Source: an uncultured Chlorobiaceae bacterium
GTDB taxonomy: Bacteria; Bacteroidota; Chlorobiia; Chlorobiales; Chlorobiaceae
Direction of reading: 5' to 3'
Assembly: GCA_903871235.1 (NCBI GenBank)
Contig: CAIQGA010000018.1
Location: forward strand, 1 to 51,669
DNA length: 51,669 bases
Part shown: piece by piece, positions 16,511-45,699 of the stretch
Layout of the letters: each line of letters begins with the position of its first letter
Position numbering within the stretch: the stretch's first letter is position 1
The notes under the pieces: generated by a model
Database searches by the model: none
Seen by the model: only the letters and a program-made list of their open reading frames with translations
Told to the model about the DNA's origin: nothing
Program-made: the position numbers and the translations under genes

Positions 16511-16819
16511 TAGCTTTTTTATGGTATACAATATGCCATTTTAACGGGATTTACAATGTGATTTTTATTGCTGATTTTACTTCCATGAAATAATGGTCAA
16601 TATGTTTTCTTGAAATTTTTTTGGTTAATAAAAAATTCAGGAGGACTTTTTTTTACAGAGAATAGACTTCTTGGTTATGTCAATTATCCATGCTTGTTGT
16701 TGTCGCAGAAAAGCGCATTCGAACATCAAGGTTTTTGCTCCAGCATAGTACTTTAATCATAGAGGTAGAAGTATAAGGAAGCCGATTCTGATTGTCCAGA
16801 TAGTCGGCTTTTTATTTTT
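16511..16819 (+). promoter_or_regulatory. Repeated operon leader, copy A (before radical SAM pair)
   Basis: The 5' block (16511-16555) has TATGGTATACAATATGCC, then CC-ATTTTAA-CGG-GATTT. A middle block CTTGTTGTTGTCGC lies at about 16693, a TTTTTGCTCC segment at about 16733, a hairpin TACTT/AAGTA at 16749-16773 and a terminator-like hairpin at 16781-16808. The same order recurs in copies B, C, E and F. It ends 20 bases before the start codon at 16840, which has no Shine-Dalgarno site. Confidence 0.75.
16781..16819 (+). terminator. Leader A 3' terminator-like hairpin
   Basis: GCCGATTCTG pairs with CAGATAGTCGGC (a small asymmetric bulge included), followed by TTTTTATTTTT. In this position it would stop transcription before the radical SAM genes unless relieved. 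Confidence 0.75.
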
Positions 16820-16839: not shown

Positions 16840-18063
16840 ATGGCTGTTGTAGAGCAAGAGATCAATAATTGTATAACTGTTGTGCCCTTTCGAAAGGATG
16901 AGGTAAGGCAGCTTCTTCTTGATGAAGCAAAATTGAGCTTGGATATTACGGAAAAGGGGATTTTATACAATGCTGAAGAGATAAAGCCTTATTTGGATCC
17001 GATAGAGCTGAAGTCAGGATTTAATCGCGGAAGCGGAATAACTGGTTTTTCTTTGCCGCATGGTTACAGTACAAGGGGGCATTTTGCTCGTTGGACTCCC
17101 TATTCACTGGTTGTTGAAGATGGGAGGCCGGTTCTTTATGATGATGGCGAGTTTATTGGAGAAATCACGTTTAACAAGGGTAATCCGGTATCCGAGCAAT
17201 TGTTGAGCACCGGTGAAAAAGTCCGCGACATAACCAATGTCACTGCGCAGGGTGGTCTTCATGTCATGTACAGCAATGAGTGTTCATTGAAGGATTTAGG
17301 AGAGGATTGCCTCTATTGCGCATTTAATGAGCGTGCCAAAGATGGCGTTCTGAACAAGGTGCTGTTAAAATCGCCCAGGCAGGTTGCTGAGGCCTATGAT
17401 ATTGCTCGCAAGGCTGGAGCGGCAAACCATTTTCGTATTACTGGCGGGTTTGTGCCGGAACGCCGTGAGCTTGAATACTACCTTGATGTGGCTGATGCCA
17501 TAAAAGAGAGGTACAGTTCGTTTTATGGTTGTGCTGTTGTCGGTGCCCCTGCTGATCTTTCTGTGCTTTCAAAATACAAAGAGGCCGGATTTGCAAATAT
17601 CTCGACCAATATTGAGGTCTGGGACAAGAATATTTTTGCAGCCATGTGTCCCGGCAAAGAAAAGCGAAATGGCGGCTGGCAGCATTGGGTTGATGCCCTT
17701 GAGTATTCGGTGGAACTGTTTGGCAAGGGAAATGTCCATTCGGCGATAGTTGCTGGCCTTGAACCACTGGAGTCCACCTTGGAGGGTATCGAGTATCTCG
17801 CATCAAAAGGAGTTGTTTGCCATTTCAGTGCATTCCGTCCGGAAAAGGGAACGCCTCTGGAGGGCTATCGGAGTCCTGATGCTGCATGGCATTGGGAGTT
17901 GCTCGACAAAGCAACCGATATTTTCCGCCGTTATGGTTTTACCACTCTTCAGATGTATAGCGGAAACGCATCGGGACCACACAGTGCACAGTTCTTCCAG
18001 ATTAAAGCCGGAGAATTTGAAGGCGATAAACTCGTTCCATGGAAATTTCCGTCACTGGATTAA
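16840..18063 (+). CDS. Radical SAM-like enzyme with C-X8-C-X2-C motif (paralogue 1)
   Basis: A 407-residue protein. The only tight cysteine cluster, C148-X8-C157-X2-C160 (NECSLKDLGEDCLYC), is followed by a segment like the SAM-binding glycine motif (RITGGFVPERRE) and a TIM-barrel-like series (FYGCAVVGAP, FANISTNIEVW, STLEGIEYLASKGV, FSAFRPEKGTPL). This looks like a radical SAM barrel, but the spacing differs from the usual C-X3-C-X2-C. About 147 residues precede the motif and form an unrecognised domain. Its neighbour at 18100 is a close paralogue with identical cysteine positions. Leader A controls both. Substrate unknown; a cofactor-building or substrate-modifying role for the nearby NifDK-like enzyme is inferred. 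Confidence 0.75.
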   Translation: MAVVEQEINNCITVVPFRKDEVRQLLLDEAKLSLDITEKGILYNAEEIKPYLDPIELKSGFNRGSGITGFSLPHGYSTRGHFARWTPYSLVVEDGRPVLYDDGEFIGEITFNKGNPVSEQLLSTGEKVRDITNVTAQGGLHVMYSNECSLKDLGEDCLYCAFNERAKDGVLNKVLLKSPRQVAEAYDIARKAGAANHFRITGGFVPERRELEYYLDVADAIKERYSSFYGCAVVGAPADLSVLSKYKEAGFANISTNIEVWDKNIFAAMCPGKEKRNGGWQHWVDALEYSVELFGKGNVHSAIVAGLEPLESTLEGIEYLASKGVVCHFSAFRPEKGTPLEGYRSPDAAWHWELLDKATDIFRRYGFTTLQMYSGNASGPHSAQFFQIKAGEFEGDKLVPWKFPSLD

Positions 18064-18099
18064 CCAATTTTTCAATACTTCACCAAGAGATAATGCATT

Positions 18100-19323
18100 A
18101 TGGCTATTGCAGAACTTGAACAAACGATAAGTTTGCATGTTGCGACTTATGATAAGGAAGTAGCAAAACAGACGCTTATCAATGAAGCGAAACTCGGGCT
18201 TCTGCTTGCCGAAAAAGGCATCAAGTATAACCCCGATGAAATCAGGCCGTTTCAGGATGATTATGAACAATCGTCGGCCTATAATCGCCAGAGAGGGTTG
18301 ACTGGAATTTCGCTACCTCACGGGGTTACAGCCCGGGGTGGTTTTAACCGATTTACACCTTATGCGCTGGTGGTTGAAGATGGCAGGCCGGTATTATATG
18401 ATGAACAGACCCGCATTGGAGAAATCTCCTTTCACAAGGCCCATCCGATTACAAGGGAGTTGCTCAATGATGGTGAAAAATTTCGCCATGTTGCCAATGT
18501 CAGTCAGGAGGGTGGTATCAGTGTGGCCTACAGCAACGAGTGCTCATTGAAAGATAAAGGTGAAGACTGCCTTTTCTGCTCCATAAATGAGCGAGCAAAA
18601 GATGGGGCGCTTAACAAGGTGCTCATCAAATCACCCAAACAGGTTGCCGAAGCATATCATCTGGCCCGTCAGGCCGGAGTAGGAAACCATTTTCGGATTA
18701 CCGGTGGTTTTGTGCCGGAACGCCGTGAGCAGGAGTACTATCTTGATGTTGCTGATGCTATCAGGGAGCGTTATGACTCTTTTTACGGTGTTGGTATTAT
18801 CGGCGCACCTTCGGAATTTTCCGTGCTTCATAAATACAAGGAGGCTGGTTTTGACAATATATCTCACAATCTTGAGGTTTGGGACCGGAATCTCTTTGCG
18901 GCTATCTGCCCTGGTAAAGAAAAACGCAATGGTGGCTGGCAGCATTGGGTAGATTCCCTTGAGTATGCGGTGGATGTTTTTGGCAAAGGCAATGTTCATA
19001 CCAATGTTGTCGGTGGTTTAGCTCCGCTGGATTCAACGCTCGAAGGAATAGAGTATCTGGCGTCAAAAGGAATTATCTGCCATTTCAGTGCATTTCGTCC
19101 TGAAAAAGGGACTCCTCTCTATGGATATCGCAGCCCGGAAGCGGCTTGGCATTGGGAGTTGCTTGATAAAGGAACCGAGATTTTTCGGCGCTACGGCTTC
19201 ACGACGCTTCAACTCTATAGCGGCCCGGCGTCAGCACCTCATCACGCCCAGGTTTTCCAGATCAAATATGGGGAATTTGAAGGAGAGAGGCTTTCTCAGT
19301 GGAAATTCCCATCTCTGGATTAA
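18100..19323 (+). CDS. Radical SAM-like enzyme with C-X8-C-X2-C motif (paralogue 2)
   Basis: A 407-residue protein aligned without gaps over most of its length to the one at 16840 and sharing well over half of its residues. The cluster cysteines are again C148, C157 and C160 (CSLKDKGEDCLFC), with RITGGFVPERRE after them. It starts 36 bases after the first gene stop. The pair probably arose by tandem duplication; because the two have diverged clearly at both DNA and protein level, an assembly artefact is unlikely. They may work as a heterodimer or on successive steps. Confidence 0.75.
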   Translation: MAIAELEQTISLHVATYDKEVAKQTLINEAKLGLLLAEKGIKYNPDEIRPFQDDYEQSSAYNRQRGLTGISLPHGVTARGGFNRFTPYALVVEDGRPVLYDEQTRIGEISFHKAHPITRELLNDGEKFRHVANVSQEGGISVAYSNECSLKDKGEDCLFCSINERAKDGALNKVLIKSPKQVAEAYHLARQAGVGNHFRITGGFVPERREQEYYLDVADAIRERYDSFYGVGIIGAPSEFSVLHKYKEAGFDNISHNLEVWDRNLFAAICPGKEKRNGGWQHWVDSLEYAVDVFGKGNVHTNVVGGLAPLDSTLEGIEYLASKGIICHFSAFRPEKGTPLYGYRSPEAAWHWELLDKGTEIFRRYGFTTLQLYSGPASAPHHAQVFQIKYGEFEGERLSQWKFPSLD

Positions 19324-19611
19324 TCTATTTACGGTATGCAATATCCCCTGTTGAGGGGATTTTGTAAGTTCTTTTTATTGCAGATATTGTCGTAATGATA
19401 AAAGGACAATAGCATTCCCTGTTTTTTTTTATCAGTCAATAATTAAATTTTTTGGTTATGACTTTCCTTGCTTTATCAACTTCTTGTTGTCGCTTTCATT
19501 GGAATGTGACAGATGAAGATATTGAGATTTTCGTCCTTATGTAAAGTACGTTATTGAAAAAAAACGTTTATAAGGAAGTCGATTCTTGCTGTCAGAGAAT
19601 CGGCTTTTTTT
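19324..19611 (+). promoter_or_regulatory. Repeated operon leader, copy B (before importer operon)
   Basis: Starting at the radical SAM stop codon: ACGGTATGCAATAT, then the stem CCCC-TGTTGA-GGGG with GATTTT after it (19343-19363), the middle CTTCTTGTTGTCGC at about 19486, a hairpin ACGTT/AACGT at 19548-19567, then TTATAAGGAA and the terminator-like hairpin. The 5' stem is CCCC/GGGG here but CCG/CGG or CCTT/AAGG in other copies, which is a compensatory change. Confidence 0.75.
19578..19611 (+). terminator. Leader B 3' terminator-like hairpin
   Basis: GTCGATTCT pairs with AGAATCGGC with intervening TGCTGTCAG, followed by TTTTTTT. Relative to copy C the second stem pair is T-G instead of C-G and another is T-A instead of T-G, so pairing is kept while sequence changes. 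Confidence 0.8.
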
Positions 19612-19659
19612 ATGAGAAAATTTGCAAATAATCATGTTATAGAGTACGGAGAAAAAACA

Positions 19660-20115
19660 ATGAGCCAGTCAGAAATACTACAATACATTCTGGATGCGAA
19701 ACACGCACAGCTTACCTATGTGCGAAGCGATTTGAGTCCGATATCGAGAACTATAGGCAGTTATGCGCCAGATGGAGAGGATCTCTTTTTTTCTACAAGC
19801 AAAGAGAGTGCGAAAGTAGAGGAGATAGAGAAAAACAGGCGGGTATCGTTTTTCTTTGAGCATGAAAACCAGGCTCCGGAGAGCTGGAAAAGCCTTCTTT
19901 TGATTGGTAATGCGGAGCAGGTTACTGCCGGTTCAACTGATTATGAGAAAGCTGTTGAACGCCTTGGAGCAAAAAGTCCCCGTTTCAGGGAACGGATCGC
20001 CAAAGGTGATTTGGAGAGTGCTGCAATATACCGAATCAAGACAACTGAACTCGAATATCTTGACCGAAGCAAAGGAAATGGCAAACTCCAGAAGATTGTT
20101 GTGAGTCAGTTATGA
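19660..20115 (+). CDS. Pyridoxamine-phosphate-oxidase-like FMN-binding protein
   Basis: A 151-residue split-barrel protein from the ATG at 19660 (GGAG eight bases upstream; an earlier frame start would overlap the leader). Typical features are LTYVRSDLSPISRTIGSYAPDG, LFFSTSKESAKVEEIEKNRRVSFFFEHE and the terminal YRIKTTELEYLDRSKG. Such proteins bind FMN, F420 or haem and are often reductases or oxidases of small molecules. Its stop overlaps the ABC ATPase start (ATGA), so it is translationally coupled to the importer. Substrate unknown. Confidence 0.75.
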   Translation: MSQSEILQYILDAKHAQLTYVRSDLSPISRTIGSYAPDGEDLFFSTSKESAKVEEIEKNRRVSFFFEHENQAPESWKSLLLIGNAEQVTAGSTDYEKAVERLGAKSPRFRERIAKGDLESAAIYRIKTTELEYLDRSKGNGKLQKIVVSQL

Positions 20116-21047
20116 AAAATGGCATTGCAGTAGCAAACCCTGAAAGCAACACTCTTCATGGGGTGGTACCGTCAACAGTTGCATCTCAGGCAATTGGAGA
20201 GTTGGAGAGTGTTGCCAACGTTCACAAAGATGCTCCGCAACCGGTACAATTTCTGGATAACCGTCCGGTGAAGCTCTCTGTCAAGAATCTTGTGGTAGGC
20301 TATCTCGACAAGCAGAGTGGCCATACTATGGTGGCTGTCGACAAGGTGACGCTTGATATTCGCGAAGGGGAATTTGTGACGATTGTCGGGTTGTCCGGTT
20401 GCGGTAAATCGACATTTCTCAACGCTATTGCTGGTTTGGTCAAACATCAGCATGGTGAAATTAAAGTCAATGGTCGAATTGTCACTGGACCCGGAATGGA
20501 CAGGGCGGTGGTGTTTCAAAAAGCATCACTGCTGCCCTGGCGGAAGGTTGGACGCAATATCACCTATGGACTGGAATTGAGTGGTATGAAGCAGGCCGAT
20601 GCGAGAGAAAAAGCCAGTTACTACGTTAATCTGATACGTCTTAACGGCTTTGAGGATCATTATCCGCATCAATTATCTGGAGGCATGCAGCAGCGAGTGA
20701 ATCTGGCGCGTGCCCTGGCCTGCGACCCTGAGGTGTTGCTGCTGGATGAGCCGTTTGCCGCCCTCGATGCCATTACTCGTGAATTAATGCAGAACGAACT
20801 CCTCGAACTGTGCGAAAAGGTTGGCAAGACGGTCTTGATGGTTACGCATCAAATTGACGAAGCGGTGCTTCTTTCCGACCGGGTCATCATTTTTTCATCT
20901 CGTCCGGCTTATGTGCTTGCCGATATCCGTATTCCTATCCGGAGACCACGTAAAAGCCTCATCAAAGATTCTGAAGAGTTCAGGGGACTGATGAACGAGA
21001 TTTGGAGAGTTATTGAAGGGAATGCAAATATTGGAGGCGGTATATGA
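20112..21047 (+). CDS. NitT/TauT-family ABC importer, ATP-binding subunit
   Basis: A 311-residue ATPase with Walker A GLSGCGKST (93-101), Q-loop VFQKASLLPW, signature LSGGMQQRV (from 188) and Walker B VLLLDEPFAALDA. The QxxxLLPW segment and overall form place it in the SsuB/TauB/NrtD group that imports sulfonates, nitrate-like anions, pyrimidine precursors or similar small molecules. An N-terminal extension of about 50 residues precedes the ABC domain. Overlaps both neighbours by four bases, forming one coupled operon with the permease and binding protein. Confidence 0.88.
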   Translation: MKNGIAVANPESNTLHGVVPSTVASQAIGELESVANVHKDAPQPVQFLDNRPVKLSVKNLVVGYLDKQSGHTMVAVDKVTLDIREGEFVTIVGLSGCGKSTFLNAIAGLVKHQHGEIKVNGRIVTGPGMDRAVVFQKASLLPWRKVGRNITYGLELSGMKQADAREKASYYVNLIRLNGFEDHYPHQLSGGMQQRVNLARALACDPEVLLLDEPFAALDAITRELMQNELLELCEKVGKTVLMVTHQIDEAVLLSDRVIIFSSRPAYVLADIRIPIRRPRKSLIKDSEEFRGLMNEIWRVIEGNANIGGGI

Positions 21048-21853
21048 GAAAAGTGACGGTTTTTCCAAAATCTAACGCTGCAAAAAAAGAGAAAATTACC
21101 GGTCTGTTGCTGGGGGCGAGTGTTATAGTGCTGTTTCTGGTTGGTTGGGAGCTTCTGTTTCAATTCAAGCTTGTTAATCCGATTTTTATCAGCGCTCCTT
21201 CACGGGTAGTTCTTGCTTTGATTACAATCATTGAGGACGGCTCATTATTTCAAAATCTTACAATAAGCGCAAAGGAGTTTGCTTTTGGATATGGTGCGGC
21301 AATTCTTGTTGGTTTTCCCATAGGGATTATGCTGGGGTGGTTTAAACTGATTCGAGCAGCTTTTGGTCCGTTTATTGCCGCCATGCAGGCAACACCACGT
21401 ATTGCGCTCATGCCACTGTTCATTATCTGGTTTGGACTTGGCATCACCTCCAAGATTGTGATTGTTCTTTTGAGCGCCATTTTTCCCCTGATCGTCAATC
21501 TTCAGGTTGCCATGACTACCATTGACAATGACCTGATTCATGTCGCTCGCGCTTATGGCGCAACCCGCTGGCAAGTATTTAGAAGTATAGCGCTACCGAC
21601 CTCCTTGCCGTTTTTGATAACCGGTTTACGCTTGGCTGCAGGACGTGGACTCCTTGGTGTTATTGTGGCCGAGGTTTTCGGTGGAGCGGCAGGTATCGGC
21701 TACATGATTCAGTATGCCGGTTCAACATTTCAGACGGACAAGGTTTTTGCCGGTGTTTTGGTTGTCGCAGTCACTGGCATTACGCTTGATTTTACGCTTG
21801 ATCGGCTTGGTCGTCATTTCGATAGATGGCGCGGCGAAGCTGTTGCGCATTAA
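21044..21853 (+). CDS. NitT/TauT-family ABC importer, permease
   Basis: A 269-residue permease of the SsuC/TauC type with about six membrane segments and the EAA-loop region (VARAYGATRWQVFRSIALPTSLPFLITGLRLA). The ATPase gene overlaps its start. It would form the membrane channel, probably as a homodimer since only one permease is encoded in this importer. Confidence 0.88.
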   Translation: MRKVTVFPKSNAAKKEKITGLLLGASVIVLFLVGWELLFQFKLVNPIFISAPSRVVLALITIIEDGSLFQNLTISAKEFAFGYGAAILVGFPIGIMLGWFKLIRAAFGPFIAAMQATPRIALMPLFIIWFGLGITSKIVIVLLSAIFPLIVNLQVAMTTIDNDLIHVARAYGATRWQVFRSIALPTSLPFLITGLRLAAGRGLLGVIVAEVFGGAAGIGYMIQYAGSTFQTDKVFAGVLVVAVTGITLDFTLDRLGRHFDRWRGEAVAH

Positions 21854-21890
21854 GTGTGTTAAAATATTATAAATAAATAGGTTAATTGTT

Positions 21891-22871
21891 ATGCAAAAAC
21901 TTGGTATTACAAAATTCATTCCACTTATATCTCTTGTTGTGCTTGCTGCAGGCTGCACCGGAAAAAACGAACAACCAGCCGTGACGGGTGAAGCGCAAAA
22001 AACCCTTGTCAGGTATGCCACGAGTGCGGGAAATCTCCCCATAGCTTTTGGTATCAAAAAGGGTTATTTCGCTGAACAGGGAATTGAGGTTAAGGTTGTA
22101 ACCATTACCGGTGGTGTTGAGGCTGTGACCGCTGCTGCTGCCGGTGAGGCGGATATGGGAGGCATGGGGTCACCTGTGATTGTGGGAGCCGTTGCTGGAG
22201 TGCCTATTACCATTATTGCTTCTCCACCATCTGCAGGTCAGCATTTTGTTTTGGTATCAAAACCTCAATACAAGAGTTTTGCTGAGTTGAAAGGCAAAGC
22301 GGTCAGCCCTGGTGCTCCAGGCCAGGGCACTATCCAGGCATTTAATGTTATCGCGAAAGCCAAAGGATTTAAACCTTCCGATTTTCAGTATGTGAATGCC
22401 GGTACCAGTGCAAATGCCTTGGCTGCATTGCAGGCAGGTAAGGTTGAAGCGGTCATTACATCGGAACTGGTAGGGGTCAAGGCAGAATTGGAAGGATTCG
22501 GCAAGGTGCTGGAGCATGCGGCAGATTACTTCGGTCATTATCAGCACACATTCATCTTTGCAACAAAGAGCTTTATCCAGGAAAAACCTGATGCAGTCAG
22601 AGGATTTCTGGCAGCTTATCGCAAAACGGTAGAGTATCTCAAAGCCCATCCTGATGAGGCGATTTCATTCGCTGTAAAAGAGTTGCAGCAGGATGAAGTG
22701 ACTTATAGAAAAGTCTATGCAAAGGAGATCCCGAATTGGGACACGAGTGGACGAATCGACTTTGTTGGTACTGAACATGCGATTACCATTCTGAAAGATC
22801 TGGGCGATATCAGCCCGAACTCCAGGGTGACGGCTCAACAGATTATTGATGAGCAGTTCCTCCCCAAGTAA
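21891..22871 (+). CDS. NMT1/SsuA-like substrate-binding lipoprotein
   Basis: A 326-residue binding protein with a lipoprotein signal (ISLVVLAAGC, lipid on the cysteine at about residue 21). The mature part shows the family pattern RYATSAGNLPIAFGIKKGYF, then VVTITGGVEAVTAAAAGEADMG and LKGKAVSPGAPGQGT. It captures the ligand for the importer encoded just upstream. The ligand cannot be read from the sequence; the fold serves sulfonates, aromatic acids, riboflavin and pyrimidine precursors among others. Confidence 0.88.
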   Translation: MQKLGITKFIPLISLVVLAAGCTGKNEQPAVTGEAQKTLVRYATSAGNLPIAFGIKKGYFAEQGIEVKVVTITGGVEAVTAAAAGEADMGGMGSPVIVGAVAGVPITIIASPPSAGQHFVLVSKPQYKSFAELKGKAVSPGAPGQGTIQAFNVIAKAKGFKPSDFQYVNAGTSANALAALQAGKVEAVITSELVGVKAELEGFGKVLEHAADYFGHYQHTFIFATKSFIQEKPDAVRGFLAAYRKTVEYLKAHPDEAISFAVKELQQDEVTYRKVYAKEIPNWDTSGRIDFVGTEHAITILKDLGDISPNSRVTAQQIIDEQFLPK

Positions 22872-22890
22872 TCCTCTAAACCAACCTATC

Positions 22891-24747
22891 ATGAGAGGAT
22901 TACGGATTGTCGGTTTACATGTCAGAAAGCACTGGTTTGTCTACTTTGCGGGTATCAGCATGGTTGCCGCTGCCAGTTTATTGGCAGCCCAGATTCCACG
23001 TTTACTCGGCATTGTCACGGACGGCTTGCGCGATGGGACGCTTGATCGTGCAAAAATGGTCTACTTCGCGGGTTTGATTATTTTGATCGGCATGGTGCGC
23101 GTTGCAACAGGCTGGGGAGGGCGCATTCTCGTCCATCACAAGGGGCGTGAACTGACTTATAATTTGCGCAAGCAGCTCTTTGAAAAATGGGGCACACTCT
23201 CACCATCCTATTATCATCGGCACAGTGTGGGTGATATGATTTCCCATGCCTTGAGCGATGTGGAGGTCGTGCGTGAACTCGTTTCTCAGGGGATTAATCA
23301 GGCAGTAAGCGGTCTGGCCATGCTGCTCGCAGCCGCCTGGCTTATGGCCGTGCATGTCGATTGGCGGTTGACGCTTGCCGGGCTGGGGCCGCTTCTGCTT
23401 ATTCCACTGCTTGTCAAGTGGCTTGGTCCTCAAATCAGGCTTCAGTCCCAACGTTCCCAGGAAGCGCTTGGTGCTATGGCTCAGACTACAGAGGAGGTTA
23501 TCGGAGGTATTCGTGCCGTAAAAGCCTTTGGCACAGAGCATATTGTTATTAGTCGTTTTGAAAACAGGGTTGACAACATTGTTGAAGAGAAGATGCGTTT
23601 TGTCCGTCTCTCTTCATTGTTTGGAGCCCTGGTTCCGCTGATGGTCAATCTCGGGTTTATTTTTGTGCTCGGATACGGAGGCTTTTTGCTGACAGCGAAG
23701 GTCATTTCGCTTGGAGATTTTGTGGCGTTCACCCTTTATGTTGCGTTGTTGCGTCAGCCACTGGAACAATTGGGTAATGTCCTCAACATTGTTCAACGCT
23801 CAATTGCCTCATTAAACAGGATAGATGAACTCCTGCGTGTTGTTCCGGAAGTGCTCGACAGAACAGCGCCGCTTGTTGATCGTCCACTGCAGGGAGTGCT
23901 TGAGGTGAAGGGGCTCACCTTTCGCTATCCAGGCAGCGAGAGGGATGTGCTGCACAGCATATCATTTTCTGTCGGGCCGGGGCAAACCCTTGGCATCATC
24001 GGAGCAATGGGAAGTGGAAAGTCCACCCTTGCCGATCTTCTCCTGCGGTTGTACGATCCTCCTGATGGAACTGTTTTTATAGACGGGGAGGATATTCTGC
24101 GTTACCCGCTTGCGCGTCTGAGGGACGCGATAGCCTACGTGCCTCAGGACGGGTTCCTTTTTTCTACGACAGTGCTGGAGAACATTGGTTTTTCTGATGA
24201 ATATCCTGATCGGAAACGTGCTGAACGTTGTGCAGAAATTACGGCTGTGCATCAAAATATCATCAGTTTTCCCGAGAAATACGATACGGAGATTGGCGAA
24301 CGGGGTGTTCGCCTCTCTGGCGGACAGAAACAGCGCATCGCAATTGCCCGCATGATCTACAAGGATGCGCCGTTCCAGATTATGGACGACTCTTTGAGTG
24401 CGGTCGATACCAGTACTGAACGTCGTATTCTGCGTAATCTTCTGGACCTGGTGCGATTATTTCCTGGCTCGGTAGAGCGGGCGCTGAAGGCTACCATCAT
24501 CATTTCTCACCGGTTGAGTGCAGTCCAACATGCAGATGAAATCGTGGTGTTTGATGATGGCCGCATTGTTGAGCGAGGCAGCCACACTGAACTGCTCGCC
24601 ATAGGAGGGCACTATGCCGGATTGTGGTACATGCAGGCTGGTATTGCGCAAGAGAATGATTCAGATAGACAACGAGATGTTTCGCAGCCGGATCTTGATG
24701 TTGAGATGGACGTGCTGGAAGCAGGAAGACTGGAGGAGGTGTTATGA
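22891..24747 (+). CDS. Heterodimeric ABC exporter, subunit with degenerate catalytic site (first pair)
   Basis: About 618 residues: a six-helix exporter domain (FVYFAGISMVAAASLLAAQIP onward) and an ABC domain with Walker A GAMGSGKST, signature LSGGQKQR and Walker B FQIMDDSLSAVD. The catalytic glutamate position holds aspartate, as in the degenerate-site half of BmrC/YheI-type heterodimers. The ATG at 22891 is preferred; in-frame starts at 22846/22849 overlap the binding-protein gene. The partner follows with a four-base overlap. Exports lipids, drugs or peptides in known cases. Confidence 0.85.
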   Translation: MRGLRIVGLHVRKHWFVYFAGISMVAAASLLAAQIPRLLGIVTDGLRDGTLDRAKMVYFAGLIILIGMVRVATGWGGRILVHHKGRELTYNLRKQLFEKWGTLSPSYYHRHSVGDMISHALSDVEVVRELVSQGINQAVSGLAMLLAAAWLMAVHVDWRLTLAGLGPLLLIPLLVKWLGPQIRLQSQRSQEALGAMAQTTEEVIGGIRAVKAFGTEHIVISRFENRVDNIVEEKMRFVRLSSLFGALVPLMVNLGFIFVLGYGGFLLTAKVISLGDFVAFTLYVALLRQPLEQLGNVLNIVQRSIASLNRIDELLRVVPEVLDRTAPLVDRPLQGVLEVKGLTFRYPGSERDVLHSISFSVGPGQTLGIIGAMGSGKSTLADLLLRLYDPPDGTVFIDGEDILRYPLARLRDAIAYVPQDGFLFSTTVLENIGFSDEYPDRKRAERCAEITAVHQNIISFPEKYDTEIGERGVRLSGGQKQRIAIARMIYKDAPFQIMDDSLSAVDTSTERRILRNLLDLVRLFPGSVERALKATIIISHRLSAVQHADEIVVFDDGRIVERGSHTELLAIGGHYAGLWYMQAGIAQENDSDRQRDVSQPDLDVEMDVLEAGRLEEVL

Positions 24748-26501
24748 GCAAACAATCACAAATGAGGGGCGCTTTTGCAACCCTGTTTCCCTATATCAAA
24801 TCGCATCGAAAGCGCTTGGCTCTTGTCTGTTCCCTGGTGGTGGCCGTGGTGCTGATTGATCTGGTGCAACCGTGGCTGGTAAAGGAGGCTATTGATCGTT
24901 ATGTGACCGTCTCCCGCCCTGATTCGGGCGCGATTGTGCTCATGGCGTTGAGCTACCTTGGGCTGGTGTTGCTTGCTTTTGGTCTGACCTATTATCAGGA
25001 CATCGTGTTGCAACAAATTGGTCTGTCGATTGTGCGATCGATTCGAATTGATCTGTTCAAACATATTCAGCGCCTTGCCCTGCGTTACTTCGACCAAAAC
25101 AGTCCTGGTCGAATCATCACGAATGTGGTCAGTGATACCGAAGCGCTTAATAACTTTTTTACCCAGTTTCTTGCAAATACGCTTCGAGGGACTTTTTCTC
25201 TTGTGCTGATCATGTTTTTCATGTTGCATTTGAACGTGAAGATAGCGCTCTATTGTTTTCTTCTTGTTCCGCCGGTTGTTTTTTTAGCCATCTTTTTTCA
25301 AAGTAAAATCCGGGCAATCAACACCGAAGTCCGTCACCGGCTTGGGGTACTCATAGGATTTTTGGCCGAGAATCTGAGCGGCATGGCCATTGTTCAGATT
25401 TTTCATCAGGAGGAAAAGCAGCGCCGGCGTCTGGATGAGCGCAATAAAGCCCTGCTTGAATGGACCATTCGGGAAAATCGCTGGTTTCTGCTCTTTTTTA
25501 ATATTACAGAGCTGTTGGGTGACCTTTCGATTGCAGCGCTCATCTGGTTTGGTGGAAATGGGGTGATGGAGGGCAGCATCTCGTTTGGTGTTTTATATGC
25601 CTTTGTGGGGTATATACGGCGCTTCTTTCAGCCGATTAACACTATTTCCCAGCAGATGAACACGCTCCAGTCTTCGATTGTCGCTTCGGATCGCATCAGT
25701 CGCACGCTTCAGGAGGTTCCTGATATTCAGGAGGTCGCCGATGCGACAGCGCCGGAGGTGGAGGGCTTGATTATCCTTGATGGTGTTTCTCTGGCTTATC
25801 GCTTTGGCCATACTGTTTTACACGATATTCACCTGACGATTCAGCCCGGAGAGCGTATTGGTTTTGTCGGGGCTACCGGAGCGGGTAAAACTTCTATCAT
25901 GAATCTGGTTACCAGGTTTTATGATGTCACCGCTGGCGCATTGATTATTGATGGCAAGGATATTCGTGATTGGCCGTTGGATGTGCTCCGGCGTTCAGTC
26001 GGTATTGTTCAGCAGGATGTGACTCTCTTTTCCGGTACCATTATTGACAACATCCGCTTTTTCCAGACCGATATTCCGGTGGAACGGGTCAAGGAAGCTT
26101 GCCGTTTGGTTGGTGCTGAGCCGTTTATTCTGCGACAACTTCATGGGTATGAAACGGTTTTGTCTGAGCGAGCCAGTACTCTTTCTGCTGGCGAGCGGCA
26201 ACTGCTCTCTTTTGCCCGTGTCCTGATATTTGATCCGAGGATACTGATTCTTGACGAAGCAACAGCAAGCCTCGATTCCAGGACTGAAGAGGTACTTCAG
26301 GAAGCCATCCATCGGGTGTCGGCTGGCCGCACCCTTTTGGTTATTGCTCATCGTTTATCGACGGTGCAGCAGATGGATACCATTTGCGTGCTGGAGCAGG
26401 GAAGGATTGTCGAAAGTGGCTCCCACAGTGAGTTGCTTGGCCGGCATGGGCACTATTGGCGCCTTCACCAGGCGGGCATACTGTTGGAAGAGGTGGCTTG
26501 A
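24744..26501 (+). CDS. Heterodimeric ABC exporter, catalytic partner (first pair)
   Basis: A 585-residue exporter half: six membrane helices, Walker A GATGAGKTS, a degenerate signature LSAGERQLL and an intact Walker B ILILDEATASLD with glutamate. LSAGERQ plus DEATASLD is the YheH/BmrD or MdlB-like pattern and complements the partner, which has LSGGQ but D in place of E. Together they form one canonical and one degenerate ATP site. It ends just before leader C. Confidence 0.87.
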   Translation: MSKQSQMRGAFATLFPYIKSHRKRLALVCSLVVAVVLIDLVQPWLVKEAIDRYVTVSRPDSGAIVLMALSYLGLVLLAFGLTYYQDIVLQQIGLSIVRSIRIDLFKHIQRLALRYFDQNSPGRIITNVVSDTEALNNFFTQFLANTLRGTFSLVLIMFFMLHLNVKIALYCFLLVPPVVFLAIFFQSKIRAINTEVRHRLGVLIGFLAENLSGMAIVQIFHQEEKQRRRLDERNKALLEWTIRENRWFLLFFNITELLGDLSIAALIWFGGNGVMEGSISFGVLYAFVGYIRRFFQPINTISQQMNTLQSSIVASDRISRTLQEVPDIQEVADATAPEVEGLIILDGVSLAYRFGHTVLHDIHLTIQPGERIGFVGATGAGKTSIMNLVTRFYDVTAGALIIDGKDIRDWPLDVLRRSVGIVQQDVTLFSGTIIDNIRFFQTDIPVERVKEACRLVGAEPFILRQLHGYETVLSERASTLSAGERQLLSFARVLIFDPRILILDEATASLDSRTEEVLQEAIHRVSAGRTLLVIAHRLSTVQQMDTICVLEQGRIVESGSHSELLGRHGHYWRLHQAGILLEEVA

Positions 26502-26520: not shown

Positions 26521-26798
26521 TAACCGGTTTGCGGTAGATGATATGCCGTTTAAACGGGATTTACCGGATTCGATTTATTGCTTACGTTAAGGTCTAATCA
26601 TTATAGCAAATGGTTTTCGGTTAACGGTTAATGTTGAAATCAAGAGGATATTTATGAAGTCGAGTATTATTTCAAAAAGTTGTTGTGAGTGCTTTTCAGC
26701 GCATTCTGACCTTGAAATTATTTTCTCTATGTAAAACTTGATGATACAAACAAGTTTATAAAAGAGCCGATTCTTGCTGTCAGAGAGTCGGCTTTTTT
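26521..26798 (+). promoter_or_regulatory. Repeated operon leader, copy C (before nifHDK-like operon)
   Basis: 5' block 26521-26565 with GCGGTAGATGATATG then the palindrome CCGTTTAAACGG and GATTTACC; a middle GTTGTTGTGAGTGC at about 26683; a hairpin AAACTTG/CAAGTTT at 26734-26757 (seven pairs); then TATAAAAGA and the terminator-like hairpin. This is the copy with the longest variable hairpin. About 330 further bases, including a 55-codon frame, lie between it and the nifH-like start. Confidence 0.78.
26766..26798 (+). terminator. Leader C 3' terminator-like hairpin
   Basis: GCCGATTCT pairs with AGAGTCGGC (nine pairs, one T-G), followed by TTTTTT. This is the best-formed copy of the shared terminator. 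Confidence 0.85.
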
Positions 26799-26848
26799 AT
26801 TGCAACTAAACATCAGAGAGCTGAGAGCGGTGAGCAACTTAAAGAAAT

Positions 26849-27129: not shown

Positions 27130-28005
27130 ATGAGTGAAAAAATAGGAAAACATATTGCCATCTACGGCAAAGGGGGAATAGGGAAGTCGACAACAACGTC
27201 CAATATCAGCGCAGCTCTTGCTGAGTCGGGCTACCGGGTGATCCAGATTGGCTGCGATCCAAAAAGTGACTCAACAACTATTCTTCGAGGGGGTAATGAT
27301 CTCCCGACGGTGCTTGATACATTGCGTGAACAGAGTAAGGTTCGCATTGAGGATATTTCGGCGGTAGGTTTTGGCGGTGTTCTCTGCATTGAGGCAGGCG
27401 GACCGGTGCCGGGTGTTGGTTGCGCAGGCAGAGGAATCAATGCCGCAGTAGAACTGCTTCAGGAACTGAAAATTTTTGAAGAGTTTAAGCCTGACTTTGT
27501 GCTTTACGATGTTCTTGGTGATGTTGTCTGCGGCGGCTTTGCGGTACCTATTCGCGACGGCCTTGCTGATCGTGCTTTCGTGGTAACCTCTTCAGATTTT
27601 ATGGCGATTTTTGCTGCCAACAATTTATTCAAGGCAGTCAACAAATATGCGCCGTCTGGTGGAGCGCGTCTCGGCGGAGTTATTGCCAATAGTATTCTTG
27701 CTGCTTATGCGCCGGCGCTCATTGACGATTTTGCCGCAAAAACCGGGACCCAGGTTATCGGTTATGTGCCACGTTCACTGGTTGTAGCACAGAGTGAATT
27801 GTATGGTAAAACGGTCATAGAGTCAGTGCCTCAATCCGAACAGGCACAGGTATACCGGAAGCTGGCTAAATATATCGACGAAAATGAAGATTCTGTTATT
27901 CCAAAACCACTCAATTCGCCTGAGCTGAAAAAGTGGGCAAGGGAGTGGGGTGACAGGATATTTGAGGTTGAAACTGGTGTGGTGCATGAAATGGCCTCTA
28001 TATAA
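27130..28005 (+). CDS. NifH-like ATP-dependent electron-transfer protein
   Basis: A 291-residue member of the NifH/BchL/CfbC/MarH family. Seen are the P-loop GKGGIGKST (13-21), GCDPKSDST (41-49), and both [4Fe-4S] ligand cysteines C98 ([12 protein letters not shown]) and C134 ([14 protein letters not shown]). It should form a homodimer that bridges one cluster and passes electrons to the NifDK-like partner on ATP hydrolysis. AAGGA lies eight bases before the ATG. The partners follow directly, so it is dedicated to them. Which subfamily (methylthio-alkane reductase type, other group IV, or new) needs a tree; no nifB, nifE or nifN is in the window. Confidence 0.93.
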
Positions 28006-28041: not shown

Positions 28042-29454
28042 ATGAGTCCATTACGCGCAAAAGCGCCGCGAAGCCGCGAAAAACGTCTTGATACCCTTGG
28101 TGCATGGCTTGGTCTGGTTTCGGCAGCATCAACAGAGTTTGCCGGAGATGACATTGCTCAACGCATCAGAACCTTTGCCCAGAGCAGTAACGATGATCTG
28201 CTTTATGCGTTGCGCATTCTGGCAGGGATCCGCGACAGCGTCACCATTATTCATGGTCCGCGAGGTTGTGCTGCTGCAGGCTTGTACCATATAGCGGCAG
28301 GAAGCAATACCCGCTGGGTTGTTACCAATCTTGATGAGCGCGATACGATTATGGGTGCTGATCGCAAGTTGCGCAAGAGCGTTGTTGCCTTGTATCGTCG
28401 TTACCATCCCGCTGTTGTCTTCATTGTCGGCAATCCGGTTATTGCGATCAATAACGATGATATTCAGTCTGTTGTAGAAGAGCTGCATGAGGAGCTTGAA
28501 CTCCCGATAGTACCCGTCTATGTAACTGGATTTTCTTCCCAGAACGCGGTTTCCGGTTATGATACGGCCCTCCACTCCTTGTTGAAGTATCTCTCAGGCA
28601 ATAGCGCCACGGCGCTCAAAAATGAGCGTATTAATCTTCTTGCTGTGGCGGAACATCCACAGGATAGAAAAGAGGCACAGGAGCTATTAAAACAACTTGG
28701 TATCGAATTGAACGTCATCCCCGATGATTCGACAATTGACCAGTTCAGATTGGCAGTTTCCGCTCGCGCGTCCATTCCGCTCAGTCCTGATGCACCCGAG
28801 TATCTTGGTGCAATACTGGATAAAAAATATGGAGTACCGCTCATCAATGTGTTGCGACCTGTTGGTGTTGAGGGAACCGGTCGCTGGTTGAAGTCGATAG
28901 CGACCTTTTTAGGAAATGAGGAAGCTGCTGAAGAACTTCATGAAATCAAATCTGCAGAAACAGCCCTGCAACTGGGTGATTTTTCTCTGAAAGGAATCAA
29001 GACCTATATATCGTTATCATCGGCCAACGCTTTCAGTGTGCTTGATCTGCTCGAAGAGCTGGGTGGTGAAGTTGCTGGTCTTACCATTACGCACCTCGAC
29101 AGATTGCATGTCCGGCATCTCAATGAGCTGGCTTTACGGAATCCGTCACTCCAGATTCATGTCTCGGATGGCCAGGCTTTTGAAGAGATTTCAATTCTCC
29201 GCAAACTTGCTCCCGATCTCTATCTGGGTGATGCTACCCATCTCGGTCAGGTTGCCCGCCTCGGCATTCCAGTGGTCTCATTAGAGTCTCTTGCCATTGT
29301 CGGTTACAGCGGTGTTGTCCGTCTGGCAAGACGTATTAAAACCGCGTTGGCAAACAGTTCTTATGGGCTCTCTTTGGCCAAGGTCAATTCACCCTATCAA
29401 GACGCCTGGTTTCGTCGCAGCCACAACTGGCATATCAAGCAGGAGGTCAAGTAG
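28042..29454 (+). CDS. NifD-like subunit with a single cysteine
   Basis: A 470-residue nitrogenase-component-1 type protein. The region DSVTIIHGPRGCAAAG matches the NifD segment around Cys88 (ISHGPVGC), and TNLDERDTIMGADRKLRKSV matches the NifD EKDIVFGGDKKL segment. C76 is the only cysteine in the whole protein: the NifD Cys62 site has no cysteine, and the Cys154 site (SECPIGLIGDDI) reads VGNPVIAINNDDI. No equivalent of the FeMo-cofactor ligand Cys275 exists. A terminal RRSHNWH segment could recall the NifD His442 area, but I am unsure. It should pair with the K-like subunit whose start is one base after its stop. Confidence 0.88.
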   Translation: MSPLRAKAPRSREKRLDTLGAWLGLVSAASTEFAGDDIAQRIRTFAQSSNDDLLYALRILAGIRDSVTIIHGPRGCAAAGLYHIAAGSNTRWVVTNLDERDTIMGADRKLRKSVVALYRRYHPAVVFIVGNPVIAINNDDIQSVVEELHEELELPIVPVYVTGFSSQNAVSGYDTALHSLLKYLSGNSATALKNERINLLAVAEHPQDRKEAQELLKQLGIELNVIPDDSTIDQFRLAVSARASIPLSPDAPEYLGAILDKKYGVPLINVLRPVGVEGTGRWLKSIATFLGNEEAAEELHEIKSAETALQLGDFSLKGIKTYISLSSANAFSVLDLLEELGGEVAGLTITHLDRLHVRHLNELALRNPSLQIHVSDGQAFEEISILRKLAPDLYLGDATHLGQVARLGIPVVSLESLAIVGYSGVVRLARRIKTALANSSYGLSLAKVNSPYQDAWFRRSHNWHIKQEVK

Positions 29455-29455
29455 T

Positions 29456-30775
29456 ATGTCGAATCATCTTGAAGGATCACGTAACTCATGTGCGTTGCAT
29501 GGAGCATTGCAGCTTTTTGAGGCAATCGAGGGAGTCATTCCGGTAATCCACAGCACTTCCGGCTGTGGTGTACAGCATTATCTTGGAGTAACGCGCCTGA
29601 GCGGCGGTAATGATCCTTTCAGCAGTCCTCCTGTTTCATCCAGCAATATCGCTGAAAAACATGTGGTCTTTGGCGGAGGTTCCCGTTTGCGCGAACAGCT
29701 CAAAAATACGGTCAAGGTCGTTCAGGGTGACCTGTATGCAATTGTTACCGGTTGCTCGACCGAAATGGTCGGTGACGACATTCCGGCAATGGCCAGAGAG
29801 GGTCGTGAACAGGAGTGGCCGGTCGTTTACGCCAATACTCCCGGATTCAGTGGCGATGTCCATCATGGGTATCATCTTGCCCTCAAAGCACTGATTGAGC
29901 AGCTTCCCGGGATATGGAAGAGGAAGGGGGAGTTCCAAACCCGACTGGTGAATGTCTGGGGGATTATTCCGAATCAGGATCCGTTCTGGCGGGGCAACCT
30001 TCAGGAGTTGGGGCGGTTACTGGAAGGTATTGGTCTGGTTCCAAATCTGTTGCTTGGCAGTGAACAGGGTATTGCCGCATGGACACAGATTCCTGAAGCA
30101 GCACTCAATCTTGTTCTGTCACATTGGGGAAAACTCCCCGCCGGATTGCTTGAGCAACGTTATGGCACCCCTTCAATTATACTGGAAGGAGCGCCTGTTG
30201 GCAGCGCTGCCGTGCCCCTGCTTCGTCGCCTGACGGAGCAACTGAAGCTTGATCAGATTCGTTCCGAAGAATTTATTACTCGTGAAGAATCACTTCTGAA
30301 CCATCAGTTTGCCCGATTGGCAGACAGCTATTACCGGGCCGGTTTTCAGAGAGAGTTTGTGCTGGTCGGTGAGAGTGCCCAGGTTACCGGCATCGGGGAG
30401 TTTCTTGGCAAGAGCTTCGGCTTGCTGCCTCGTATGCTCATCATTACTGATAATCCTCCTGATAATGTGCAGGAGGCACTGGCCGACCGTCTTTCATCAA
30501 TTGTTTCTGGCTATGATACTGAGGTCATCTTCAGTGAAGATCGAGCTGAAATAACCGACATCATTAAAACATCTGATGTTCAACTCATTCTGGCCAGTAG
30601 CCTTGAGCGCGAAGTGGCCGTGGAGCTGGACGTTCCTTTTCTTGCCCTCTCATTTCCGCTTGACGATCGAATTGTGCTTGATCGAGGCTACGCTGGTTAT
30701 CGTGGCGCAACAGCATTGCTTGAGGATATCGGCAGTTCCATTCTTGCTTTCAGCAATGATCGGTTGTTTTGTTGA
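29456..30775 (+). CDS. NifK-like subunit with three P-cluster-type cysteines
   Basis: A 439-residue protein from the ATG at 29456 (a longer frame would overlap the D-like gene by 160 bases). C12 (NSCALHGA), C37 (STSGCGVQHY) and C100 (VTGCSTEMVGDDI) align with NifK Cys70, Cys95 and Cys153, the P-cluster ligands. TEMVGDDI and NTPGFSGDVHHGY are family hallmarks. With the single cysteine of the D-like partner, four cysteines are available at the subunit interface, enough for one [4Fe-4S] cluster instead of an [8Fe-7S] P-cluster. Confidence 0.9.
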   Translation: MSNHLEGSRNSCALHGALQLFEAIEGVIPVIHSTSGCGVQHYLGVTRLSGGNDPFSSPPVSSSNIAEKHVVFGGGSRLREQLKNTVKVVQGDLYAIVTGCSTEMVGDDIPAMAREGREQEWPVVYANTPGFSGDVHHGYHLALKALIEQLPGIWKRKGEFQTRLVNVWGIIPNQDPFWRGNLQELGRLLEGIGLVPNLLLGSEQGIAAWTQIPEAALNLVLSHWGKLPAGLLEQRYGTPSIILEGAPVGSAAVPLLRRLTEQLKLDQIRSEEFITREESLLNHQFARLADSYYRAGFQREFVLVGESAQVTGIGEFLGKSFGLLPRMLIITDNPPDNVQEALADRLSSIVSGYDTEVIFSEDRAEITDIIKTSDVQLILASSLEREVAVELDVPFLALSFPLDDRIVLDRGYAGYRGATALLEDIGSSILAFSNDRLFC

Positions 30776-34510: not shown

Positions 34511-34750
34511 ATGGCATGTGCATGCAATTTTAAAGAATTTCTTGAGGTTGAATGGTCAGTGCCAACTATTTTCTCCAGGGATTGTGCTGAGATCGTGGGT
34601 ATGGCGCTTGAAGAGATCGCAGACGTTCGCGGGGTCAGGGTTAACTTGCTGTTAAAAACCGTGACGGTATGCTTTGATGATGAGCGTATTGGTTTGACAC
34701 AACTCAAAGACGCCATGAGTAACGCAGGGTTCCCCGCTGTTTTGGCTTAG
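34511..34750 (+). CDS. HMA-like small protein with altered metal site
   Basis: A 79-residue protein with the beta-alpha-beta-beta-alpha-beta pattern of heavy-metal-associated domains (FLEVEWSVP ... VRGVRVNLLLKTVTVCFDDE ... LKDAMSNAGFPAVLA). The usual C-X2-C becomes S22-R-D-C25, and two other cysteines sit at the start (MACACNF). GAGGAA precedes the ATG. It may no longer bind copper-like metals, or may use C3/C5 instead. Last but one gene of the nifHDK-like operon. Confidence 0.65.
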   Translation: MACACNFKEFLEVEWSVPTIFSRDCAEIVGMALEEIADVRGVRVNLLLKTVTVCFDDERIGLTQLKDAMSNAGFPAVLA

Positions 34751-34792: not shown

Positions 34793-35416
34793 ATGTCTGA
34801 AGATGAAAACCCGACAGGGCAACAGAACACAACGGCAACGATAACCTATAAAATCGGTGACACCCTCTACCTCAATATCACCAACCGATGCTCAAATACC
34901 TGCATATTCTGTCCGAAATTCAATCAGTATAAACTCTATGGCCATGATTTGCTCCTTGATAGAGAACCCTCTTTTGAAGAGGTTCTGGCCGCGATTGCGG
35001 CTATAGAGCTCACAGGAATTGATGAAATTGTTTTTTGCGGTTTTGGTGAATCGCTGCTCAGACTGGAACTGGTTCTCCGCATTGCAGAGGAACTCAAGCG
35101 TCGTTACCGTTACCCCATTCGTATCAATACCGATGGTCAGGCAAATCTTGTTCACGGTCGCAACATTGTTCCGGAACTGGTTGGTCTGGTCGATACTATT
35201 TCTGTAAGCCTCAATGCCTCAGATGCAGAAACGTATATGCAGTTGTGCGATACTCCTTTTGGTGATGATGGATTCAGTGGTGTTTGCGATTTTATACGAT
35301 TGGCAAAACAACAGATACCCAACGTGATTGCATCGGTTGTGGATTATCCGGGAGTTGACCTGGATGCTTGCCGGGTACTGGCCCTGTCGCTGGGAGTATC
35401 GTTCAGGGTGAGATGA
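34793..35416 (+). CDS. TatD-associated-type radical SAM protein
   Basis: A 207-residue compact radical SAM protein with canonical C33-X3-C37-X2-C40 (NRCSNTCIFC), the glycine motif VFCGFGESLLRLE and NTDGQANLVHGR. The short length and these motifs match the 'TatD family-associated' radical SAM group of unknown function. No tatD lies nearby. It is downstream of the HMA-like gene in the nifHDK-like operon and is therefore a candidate third radical SAM activity of the system. Confidence 0.78.
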   Translation: MSEDENPTGQQNTTATITYKIGDTLYLNITNRCSNTCIFCPKFNQYKLYGHDLLLDREPSFEEVLAAIAAIELTGIDEIVFCGFGESLLRLELVLRIAEELKRRYRYPIRINTDGQANLVHGRNIVPELVGLVDTISVSLNASDAETYMQLCDTPFGDDGFSGVCDFIRLAKQQIPNVIASVVDYPGVDLDACRVLALSLGVSFRVR

Positions 35417-37395: not shown

Positions 37396-37585
37396 GTAAC
37401 CTCTTTATGGGATAAAATATACCTTCTAAAAGGGATTTACAACCTCCTGTTTATTTCTCATTTTATTGTTGTTGTAGATGCAAAGAGAATAAAACGATTA
37501 AATTTGTGCTCAAATATAGTGCTTGGCAATACAGACAAGTTTATATGGAAGCCGATTTTTATGATCAAAGAGTCGGCCTTTATTG
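37396..37585 (+). promoter_or_regulatory. Repeated operon leader, copy E (before activator/dehydratase-like operon)
   Basis: 5' block CTCTTTATGGGATAAAATAT, then CCTT-CTAA-AAGG with GATTTAC after it (37422-37440), the middle ATTGTTGTTGTAG at about 37464, GTGCTC at about 37506, a hairpin GCTTG/CAAGT at 37521-37540, TTATATGGAA and the terminator-like hairpin. This copy is shortest, about 190 bases, because the middle is reduced; all conserved blocks are still present in order. Confidence 0.75.
37551..37585 (+). terminator. Leader E 3' terminator-like hairpin
   Basis: GCCGATTTTT pairs with AAAGAGTCGGC (about ten pairs including T-G), followed by CTTTATTGTTT, a weaker T-run than in copies B and C. 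Confidence 0.7.
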
Positions 37586-37693
37586 TTTCAGAAAGCTTGA
37601 ATTAACTTGTCAGTCATAAGAAAATTCAGATAGCGTAATTCTGTGGTTTTTGATAAAAATAAATTTTCTATAACCCAACAATTGGAGTATGCG

Positions 37694-38506
37694 ATGTCGA
37701 TAAATGGAAATTATTTTGCTGGTGTAGATGTCGGTTCACTGGCAGCAAAATCGGTGATTCTGAAAGATGGCGAGATTTTTGCCACAGGACTGGTTCCAAG
37801 TGGAGTCAATTCTGTGGAAAGCGGGTTGAATGCCTTGAACCTGGCTCTGGAGTCGGCGGGACTCAAGCAGGAGGATCTGACCTATATCGTGGGAACCGGG
37901 TATGGTCGTGTCTCTGCCCCCTATGCCAATAAGGCCGTAACGGAAATTACCTGTCACGCCAAAGGCGCAAATTACCTGCATCCGACTGTCCGGACGATTA
38001 TTGATATGGGTGGTCAGGATTGCAAAGCCATACGGATAGACCAGGATGGCGCGGTAGTCGATTTTGCCATGAACGATAAATGTGCTGCTGGTACCGGTCG
38101 TTTTCTTGAAGTCATGGCGGGCGTCTTTAAAGTTGAGCTTAAAGATCTTGGAGCTATAGCCTTGTCGGCCACTGATACAGTACCCATGAGCAGCACCTGC
38201 ACCGTCTTTGCCGAATCGGAAACGATCTCCCTGGTAGCCAGAGGTGAAAAGCCTGAAAATATTCTGAATGGTATTCATCACTCGATTGCCAATCGTATTG
38301 CCGGACTTTTCTCAAGAGTTGGTATTGAAAGTGATGTCTTTTTTTCAGGAGGGGTAGCCAAGAACAGCGGCATGAAAAGTGCAATCGAACAAGCGCTGAA
38401 AGTCACCATTGTCAAGCCGGAAATTGATCCTCAGCTTATCGGAGCTCTCGGCGCGGCTGTTATTGCACGCAACTTTTCCAAAAAAGAGGGACTATGGGCA
38501 GCCTGA
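37694..38506 (+). CDS. ATP-dependent activator of 2-hydroxyacyl-CoA dehydratase type (HgdC/BadG family)
   Basis: A 270-residue ASKHA-fold ATPase; the ATG at 37694 follows GGAG. Seen are the phosphate loops VDVGSLAAKSV and IDMGGQDCK, GTGYGR, and the two expected [4Fe-4S] cysteines C130 (NDKCAAGTGRFLEV) and C169 (SSTCTVFAESE). Such activators form homodimers that share one cluster and inject low-potential electrons into a dehydratase, benzoyl-CoA reductase or double-cubane partner. The partners follow directly. A near-identical paralogue is at 45764. Confidence 0.93.
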   Translation: MSINGNYFAGVDVGSLAAKSVILKDGEIFATGLVPSGVNSVESGLNALNLALESAGLKQEDLTYIVGTGYGRVSAPYANKAVTEITCHAKGANYLHPTVRTIIDMGGQDCKAIRIDQDGAVVDFAMNDKCAAGTGRFLEVMAGVFKVELKDLGAIALSATDTVPMSSTCTVFAESETISLVARGEKPENILNGIHHSIANRIAGLFSRVGIESDVFFSGGVAKNSGMKSAIEQALKVTIVKPEIDPQLIGALGAAVIARNFSKKEGLWAA

Positions 38507-38599
38507 CCACAGACAGGTAAACTATGATGCTCCTTTAGAGCATGCTCATTGCATTTCAAGAAATGATCAATAATAAACTCCTCAATAAAGGACGCATTT

Positions 38600-39985: not shown

Positions 39986-40030
39986 TACGGAAATTTTTTC
40001 AACCGATCTAAAATAAAGAGGAACTGAATT

Positions 40031-41236: not shown

Positions 41237-41293
41237 AATGAGCACTCAAGAAACCTGTTGAATTTCCGTAAAAAATTAAAATAGAATGAAATA

Positions 41294-43025: not shown

Positions 43026-43191
43026 TTTCAGCTTTTAGGACGAATTATTCAAAATAAATATGCGGAAAAAATATTCAAAAAGTGGGTTGCGATGTTGTGC
43101 CTGTCCATGTTTAATGTATTGCACACAACATTATTGAATGATCATATTTAAGAAATTTGAAATCAACTCATCAAAAGATAAAGGGAATATA

Positions 43192-44580: not shown

Positions 44581-44611
44581 TTTACATAAAAACAGGATAA
44601 GGAGAATGAAC

Positions 44612-45646: not shown

Positions 45647-45659
45647 GCGCTTGAGGTTT

Positions 45660-45699
45660 GTCAAAATATAAAACAAAGGGGTAAAGCTTTGGTTTTGAC
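45660..45699 (+). other. Intercistronic hairpin after the binding-protein gene
   Basis: GTCAAAA and CAAAG pair with CTTTG and TTTTGAC (45660-45699), about 12 pairs with an internal loop. There is no T-run, so it more likely stabilises the binding-protein mRNA or limits read-through than terminates. Confidence 0.5.

Follow-up and report, generated by a model that had tools for sequence, protein, structure and literature searches.

Variant radical SAM paralogues and cysteine-codon leaders in a putative organosulfur-scavenging island of an uncultured Chlorobiaceae bacterium

BciD takes part in the C7-methyl oxidation of bacteriochlorophyll e, and its published gene neighbourhood includes BchF (PMC3613366). 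It is also the best Swiss-Prot match of IsrB from Rhodobacter capsulatus, where anaerobic growth on isethionate needs each of isrB, isrH, isrDK and the ssuCAB importer; that work leaves unresolved what part IsrB plays alongside the nitrogenase-like reductase for isethionate (PMC11423573). The published cysteine pattern of this reductase consists of Cys74 alone in IsrD, with Arg and Pro/Ser at the other places, and Cys12, Cys37 and Cys99 in IsrK. Methylthio-alkane reductase (Mar) is another NifHDK-like reductase that cleaves C–S bonds and has a NifB-type radical SAM gene. Short leader ORFs with polycysteine stretches are known from Actinobacteria, mycobacteria among them (PMC1262725; Canestrari 2020, as cited in PMC13236596).

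We analysed a 51,669-nucleotide stretch of DNA from an uncultured Chlorobiaceae bacterium, here called the window. It resembles the isrBHDK locus (PMC11423573) in combining radical SAM genes with an SsuCAB-type importer and a nifHDK-like set. It differs in having additional flavoprotein, exporter and double-cubane genes. We read its two adjoining radical SAM genes as variant paralogues in an island that obtains sulfur from organosulfur compounds (probably sulfonates) brought in by importers, and assign this reading a probability of roughly 0.6.

The variant radical SAM pair

Copy A (16840-18063, plus strand) and copy B (18100-19323, plus strand) are separated by 36 bp. Each encodes a protein of 407 residues, and the two are 69% identical. 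Both open reading frames place cysteines at residues 148, 157 and 160 and carry ITGGFVPERRE at residues 200-210, in agreement with a preliminary description of this DNA. The cluster motif is C148-X8-C157-X2-C160 (CSLKDLGEDCLYC and CSLKDKGEDCLFC, respectively), which indeed differs from the CX3CX2C spacing. CX8CX2C is present in all 70 homologues of a first motif scan, and one homologue found later has CX6CX2C instead. Residues C148, C157, C160, G203, E259 and P271-G272-K273 are invariant across the 70-sequence alignment, and dN/dS among orthologues is 0.05-0.14. The proposal that the motif is under selection is borne out by these values: by sequence comparison, its occurrence in both copies is not a matter of chance, and the pair is under purifying selection.

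Open frames of 831-835 aa hinted at a fusion of the two genes. The DNA has stop codons between them, and the fusion was rejected. Two motif variants were seen among the relatives. In L168 (3209-4435, minus strand) a canonical CX3CX2C is nested within CX8CX2C (CEYAACGKPCEFC), and in L176 (4680-5927, minus strand) CHFGKNSCLYC forms CX6CX2C. Together, these sequences may offer a view of how the long spacer originated.

Both copies match the NCBIfam family NF045502 ('variant_rSAM') over nearly their whole length, with 362.9 bits for copy A and 356.7 bits for copy B against a curated cut-off of 125. The model spans residues 24-364 of copy A and 40-364 of copy B, taking in both the N-terminal region and the barrel, and carries no assigned function. 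The score for PF04055 is also above its cut-off. AlphaFold, run with the family alignment, gives a model with a mean pLDDT of 88.9 and a pTM of 0.88. Compared with known structures by VIA-align, the predicted fold is closest to lipoyl synthase (LipA) and HydE (Z ~18), with Z ~16-17 for ThiH, biotin synthase (BioB) and NifB. When the family profile is compared with solved structures, only two biotin synthases are retrieved, at E 1e-6 or weaker. By their predicted fold, with the three-cysteine motif on a partial β/α barrel, both copies are members of the radical SAM superfamily. The structure prediction proposed in the preliminary description as a check therefore yields the SAM-binding barrel whose absence would have spoken against the assignment.

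Other radical SAM enzymes have their SAM-binding GGE motif directly behind the second strand of the barrel. In the AlphaFold model, GGF (202-204) is positioned just past the second strand (197-201), and this equivalent location explains the conservation of ITGGFVPERRE. Approximately 147 residues precede the first cluster cysteine in both copies, and had been taken for a novel domain. Folded alone (pLDDT 82.8), the N-terminal 139 residues have no PDB match at E ≤ 0.001, which does not imply a new fold. The length is as described; the novelty is not, since one NF045502 model covers this part together with the barrel, making it a feature of the family.

The same holds for any view of the spacing as unlike that of known families. 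CX8CX2C is the hallmark of NF045502 and is therefore not new, and the proposed search for other families with this spacing leads to one that is already named. The related MSMEG_0568 family of radical SAM proteins, from the Nit1C nitrilase cluster, is similar over most of the length and also has a long first spacer, which is CX9CX2C in one member protein. The copies lie outside that family, scoring 72.8 and 78 bits against TIGR04043, far under its cut-off of 303.7. They are likewise not NifB proteins, in which the motif is CX3CX2C. Among the papers searched, none dealt with radical SAM enzymes of the CX8CX2C type.

A family member with CX8CX2C (CDNNNTGRSCRFC) adjoins BchF in two Chlorobiaceae genomes. 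Because this matches the published place of bciD, BciD very probably belongs to the variant_rSAM family; the neighbour cruB was not confirmed by profile. This presumed BciD is a separate and distant protein, ~23% identical to the window copies, with another neighbourhood and another substrate. The copies do not share the clustering with bchF2/cruB that marks BciD in brown-coloured green sulfur bacteria, and are located among nitrogenase-like and transport genes. IsrB would by inference also be placed in the family, through its published similarity to BciD.

Cysteine-codon leaders

A conserved leader of ~130 nt is found on the plus strand upstream of five window operons. It precedes the radical SAM pair (16689-16817), where a small ORF (16677-16748, MSIIHACCCRRKAHSNIKVFAPA) is followed by a terminator hairpin in an attenuator-like arrangement. 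Further copies precede the flavoprotein/ABC importer operon (19485-19613; small ORF 19458-19544 with Cys-Cys), the nifHDK-like genes (26675-26801; small ORF 26654-26734, MKSSIISKSCCECFSAHSDLEIIFSM), the double-cubane-cluster/activase operon (37461-37586; Cys codons, with no standard start codon seen) and the porin/substrate-binding protein operon (42904-43027; small ORF 42880-42936, CCCR). Four of the five contain an ATG-started Cys-Cys peptide.

The terminator hairpin comprises 13 pairs, four of them with compensatory changes. All five pairs of a second hairpin, CTTG/CAAG, show changes on both sides (0 of 500 shuffles; relatedness is ignored in this and the following shuffle statistics). At least two consecutive Cys codons occur in a short ORF in 23 of 27 leaders (shuffle mean 1.3, maximum 6), and at least three in 12 leaders (shuffle maximum 1). 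The ORF ends 15-75 nt ahead of the hairpin, and the distance from the ATG to the Cys run shifts by whole codons, as would that of a translated ORF. A covariance model widened the set to 68 examined leaders, 59 of which encode such a short peptide with consecutive Cys codons. On the whole 3.3-Mb genome this model, whose training set included four of the five window copies but not the one at 42904, gives five clear matches, all within this island. Among 86 Chlorobiaceae genomes the leader is present in 26, and in 18 of the 23 that encode an Isr-type NifD-like protein.

With a short ORF of consecutive Cys codons ahead of an intrinsic terminator, the leader is apparently a cysteine attenuator. Cysteine shortage would stall ribosomes at the Cys codons of the leader peptide and allow RNA polymerase to pass the terminators, which would place the pair in a sulfur-starvation regulon. 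An Rfam scan of the window returned no family at gathering score, so the leader is not a catalogued riboswitch or attenuator. A sigma-70 promoter scan found no more sites than in shuffles, and none of the papers searched dealt with cysteine attenuation in Chlorobium. Pairing of GACATCAA with TTGCTGTC as an antiterminator found no support (71% paired, 72% in shuffles), a point against our main reading. Similar short ORFs with consecutive Cys codons precede sulfur genes in Actinobacteria (PMC1262725; Canestrari 2020, as cited in PMC13236596). Unlike these, the leaders described here belong to Chlorobiaceae, combine a conserved intrinsic terminator with a second hairpin, and recur ahead of several operons in a single island.

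The same leader is also seen in front of an RND-type efflux operon in L250, L251, L253, L258, L243 and L248. This operon encodes a membrane-fusion-like protein, an AcrB family protein (PF00873) and a third gene product, and occurs in genomes with and without the Isr-type nitrogenase-like protein. In L240, L242, L245, L246 and L247 the leader precedes importer, porin or double-cubane operons, and no radical SAM match was found. The regulon therefore has a branch that lacks the variant radical SAM enzyme. The presence of leader, importer and double-cubane genes without the radical SAM gene in some genomes counts against our main reading.

Nitrogenase-like proteins and island neighbourhood

The nifHDK-like set (all plus strand) encodes a NifH-like reductase (27130-28005), in which both cluster cysteines, 98 and 134, are kept, a NifD-like protein (NflD, 28042-29454) and a NifK-like protein (NflK, 29456-30775). 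The start of NflK was moved to the ATG at 29456, which has AGGAGG upstream. NflD contains the lone cysteine C76, with Pro at the place of NifD Cys154 and Asp at that of Cys62. NflK contains C12, C37 and C100, and in addition a C-terminal cysteine. One cysteine in D and three in K is also the signature of the isethionate reductase. The two differ at the first lost cysteine, which is Arg in IsrD and Asp in all aligned cluster members of these islands, so that the nitrogenase-like protein (NFL) and Isr may be sisters that differ in substrate, which also counts against our main reading. Asp serves as a cluster ligand in DPOR, and by analogy the NflD residue might be a ligand as well.

In Mar, both the P-cluster cysteines and the one for the cofactor are retained in the D protein, and the radical SAM partners are CX3CX2C and NifB-like. 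A plasmid search for Isr-type clusters returned Mar-type proteins with P-cluster cysteines as the two closest NflD matches. In Clostridia, NflD proteins that keep the other cysteines accompany NifB-type CX3CX2C proteins.

Isr-type NflD and main-clade radical SAM genes occur together in 23 of 23 Chlorobiaceae genomes, and none of the remaining 63, which lack this NflD, has a main-clade radical SAM gene (86 genomes; BciD and a distant clade counted apart, short fragments G244 and G362 left unassigned, relatedness ignored). This tight co-occurrence would also fit an alternative in which the radical SAM proteins mature or activate the NifDK-like protein, acting like NifB or an activase and never touching the imported substrate. 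NifB provides the precedent, and isrB is essential together with isrHDK, its role being stated as open. Against this, up to eight paralogues accompany one nifHDK-like set, and in NflD the ligands of FeMo-co and most of those of the P-cluster are missing, so that hardly any complex cluster would need assembly. Among characterised relatives the closest is BciD, whose substrate is a small molecule. In addition, relatives of the pair are found beside a flavoprotein and importer in genomes without the Isr-type NFL. We regard a maturase role as rather doubtful.

Isr-type NflD is absent from the Chlorobiaceae genomes G197, G264, G121 and partly G362, where distant radical SAM genes adjoin a PNPOx-like flavoprotein and/or a sulfonate/taurine-type ABC importer. 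Distant members in several Desulfuromonadia (for example L207, L209, L212 and L213) stand beside the same kinds of gene. These gene labels come from blastp to the cluster members, and 'NFL-free' denotes freedom from the Isr type, as such genomes may hold Mar-type or nitrogenase-related NifDK-like proteins. Because these distant members lack an Isr-type NifDK, a substrate role is favoured over a maturase role. The tree places them in a clade more distant than the window copies, which counts against the main reading. The preliminary description had the pair act on the NifDK-like active site or on its substrate; the link to the NifDK-like protein stands, through co-occurrence and the shared leader, and of the two targets the substrate is favoured. 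Near distant-clade radical SAM and importer genes, L218 (10332-11156) and L224 (13921-14745) carry a ~40% identical NifH-like gene; no NifDK-like gene was seen adjoining either.

The further island genes from the flavoprotein to the second transport set lie on the plus strand. The PNPOx-like flavoprotein (19612-20115, PF01243) is a recurrent neighbour. It is followed by an SsuABC/TauABC-type importer (20112-22871; ATPase, permease and substrate-binding protein with PF09084, NMT1). Its SsuA family score of 109 bits is below the cut-off and counts against the sulfonate reading. Membership in SaoA/SaoX was rejected on scores below the cut-offs. Two proteins of ABC half-exporter type follow (22846-26501), assigned from sequence and, for 24744-26498, from PF00664/PF00005. 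The genes at 37643-42682 encode an activase of the acyl-CoA dehydratase type together with HgdB/C-like proteins, relatives of the double-cubane-cluster reductase family. A second transport set (43138-50227) comprises ABC permeases with an ATPase, a substrate-binding protein and a porin-like protein, accompanied by an activase and a double-cubane-like protein. A further radical SAM gene of the TatD-linked type (34793-35416; TIGR04038, 258 bits) is recurrent in these islands, and in the window adjoins a MerP/CopZ-like protein of 79 aa (34511-34750).

Part of this inventory could suit an island for another compound class, such as organometals, phosphonates or a natural product, with cysteine control reflecting thiol demand. 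Binding proteins of the NMT1/THI5 type are broad, and half-exporters, RND pumps and the MerP/CopZ-like protein are present. The Isr-type cysteine signature, the sulfur-assimilation neighbours and the arylsulfotransferase speak against this alternative, which we consider unlikely. The homologous locus of G229 contains O-acetylhomoserine sulfhydrylase, and that of Clostridium polyendosporum contains cysK, a sulfate ABC transporter and metK. Arylsulfotransferase-family genes (PF05935) are located inside two radical SAM arrays (L172, 14427-15869; L066, 1142-2584), each with its own Cys-codon leader in front.

Roles of the paralogues

In the tree, copy A and copy B fall in separate clades, each with a Geobacteraceae relative, and the duplication therefore looks older than the presence of the genes in Chlorobiaceae. 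By sequence, the copies are anciently diverged paralogues. The preliminary description suggested a heterodimer, which as an obligate pair would have one catalytic and one structural copy. The genes adjoin in many Chlorobiaceae and both are kept as separate clades, which speaks for such a pair. In Spartobacteria, in FCPU426 and at two loci of Chlorobiaceae, copy A has no copy-B counterpart (L040, L041, L044 and G252), so that obligate pairing is unsupported, and all cluster and SAM motifs are kept in both copies. We consider an obligate heterodimer very unlikely. Across loci, a single nifHDK-like set is accompanied by one to eight radical SAM paralogues, as opposed to the one IsrB of R. capsulatus. 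Most likely, copy A and copy B serve different substrates in a division of labour.

Our favoured reading is that the pair acts on an imported substrate. The compound would enter through the SsuABC-type importers. The radical SAM enzyme would hold a [4Fe-4S] cluster on C148, C157 and C160 and convert SAM to a 5'-deoxyadenosyl radical, which would activate the substrate carbon adjoining sulfur. The Isr-type reductase, the flavoprotein or both would supply electrons, and the C–S bond would break. We infer both the sulfonate nature of the substrate and the radical chemistry on it. More tentatively, it is possible that CX8CX2C members cleave or activate C–S bonds of imported organosulfur compounds without an Isr-type partner, using the small flavoprotein instead, and that the tandem arrays in green sulfur bacteria are a substrate repertoire switched by a cysteine-sensing attenuator.

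The motif itself contributes less to the novelty of the locus than do the regulon and those modules in which a radical SAM protein occurs apart from the nitrogenase-like one. These modules without the Isr-type NFL, together with the paralogue arrays, make the question of the IsrB role directly testable. From sequence, the Cys-codon leaders independently point to a function for several gene families that lack a clear assignment (variant_rSAM, Isr-type NFL, double-cubane reductase and importer genes), and provide a marker for more members of the regulon.
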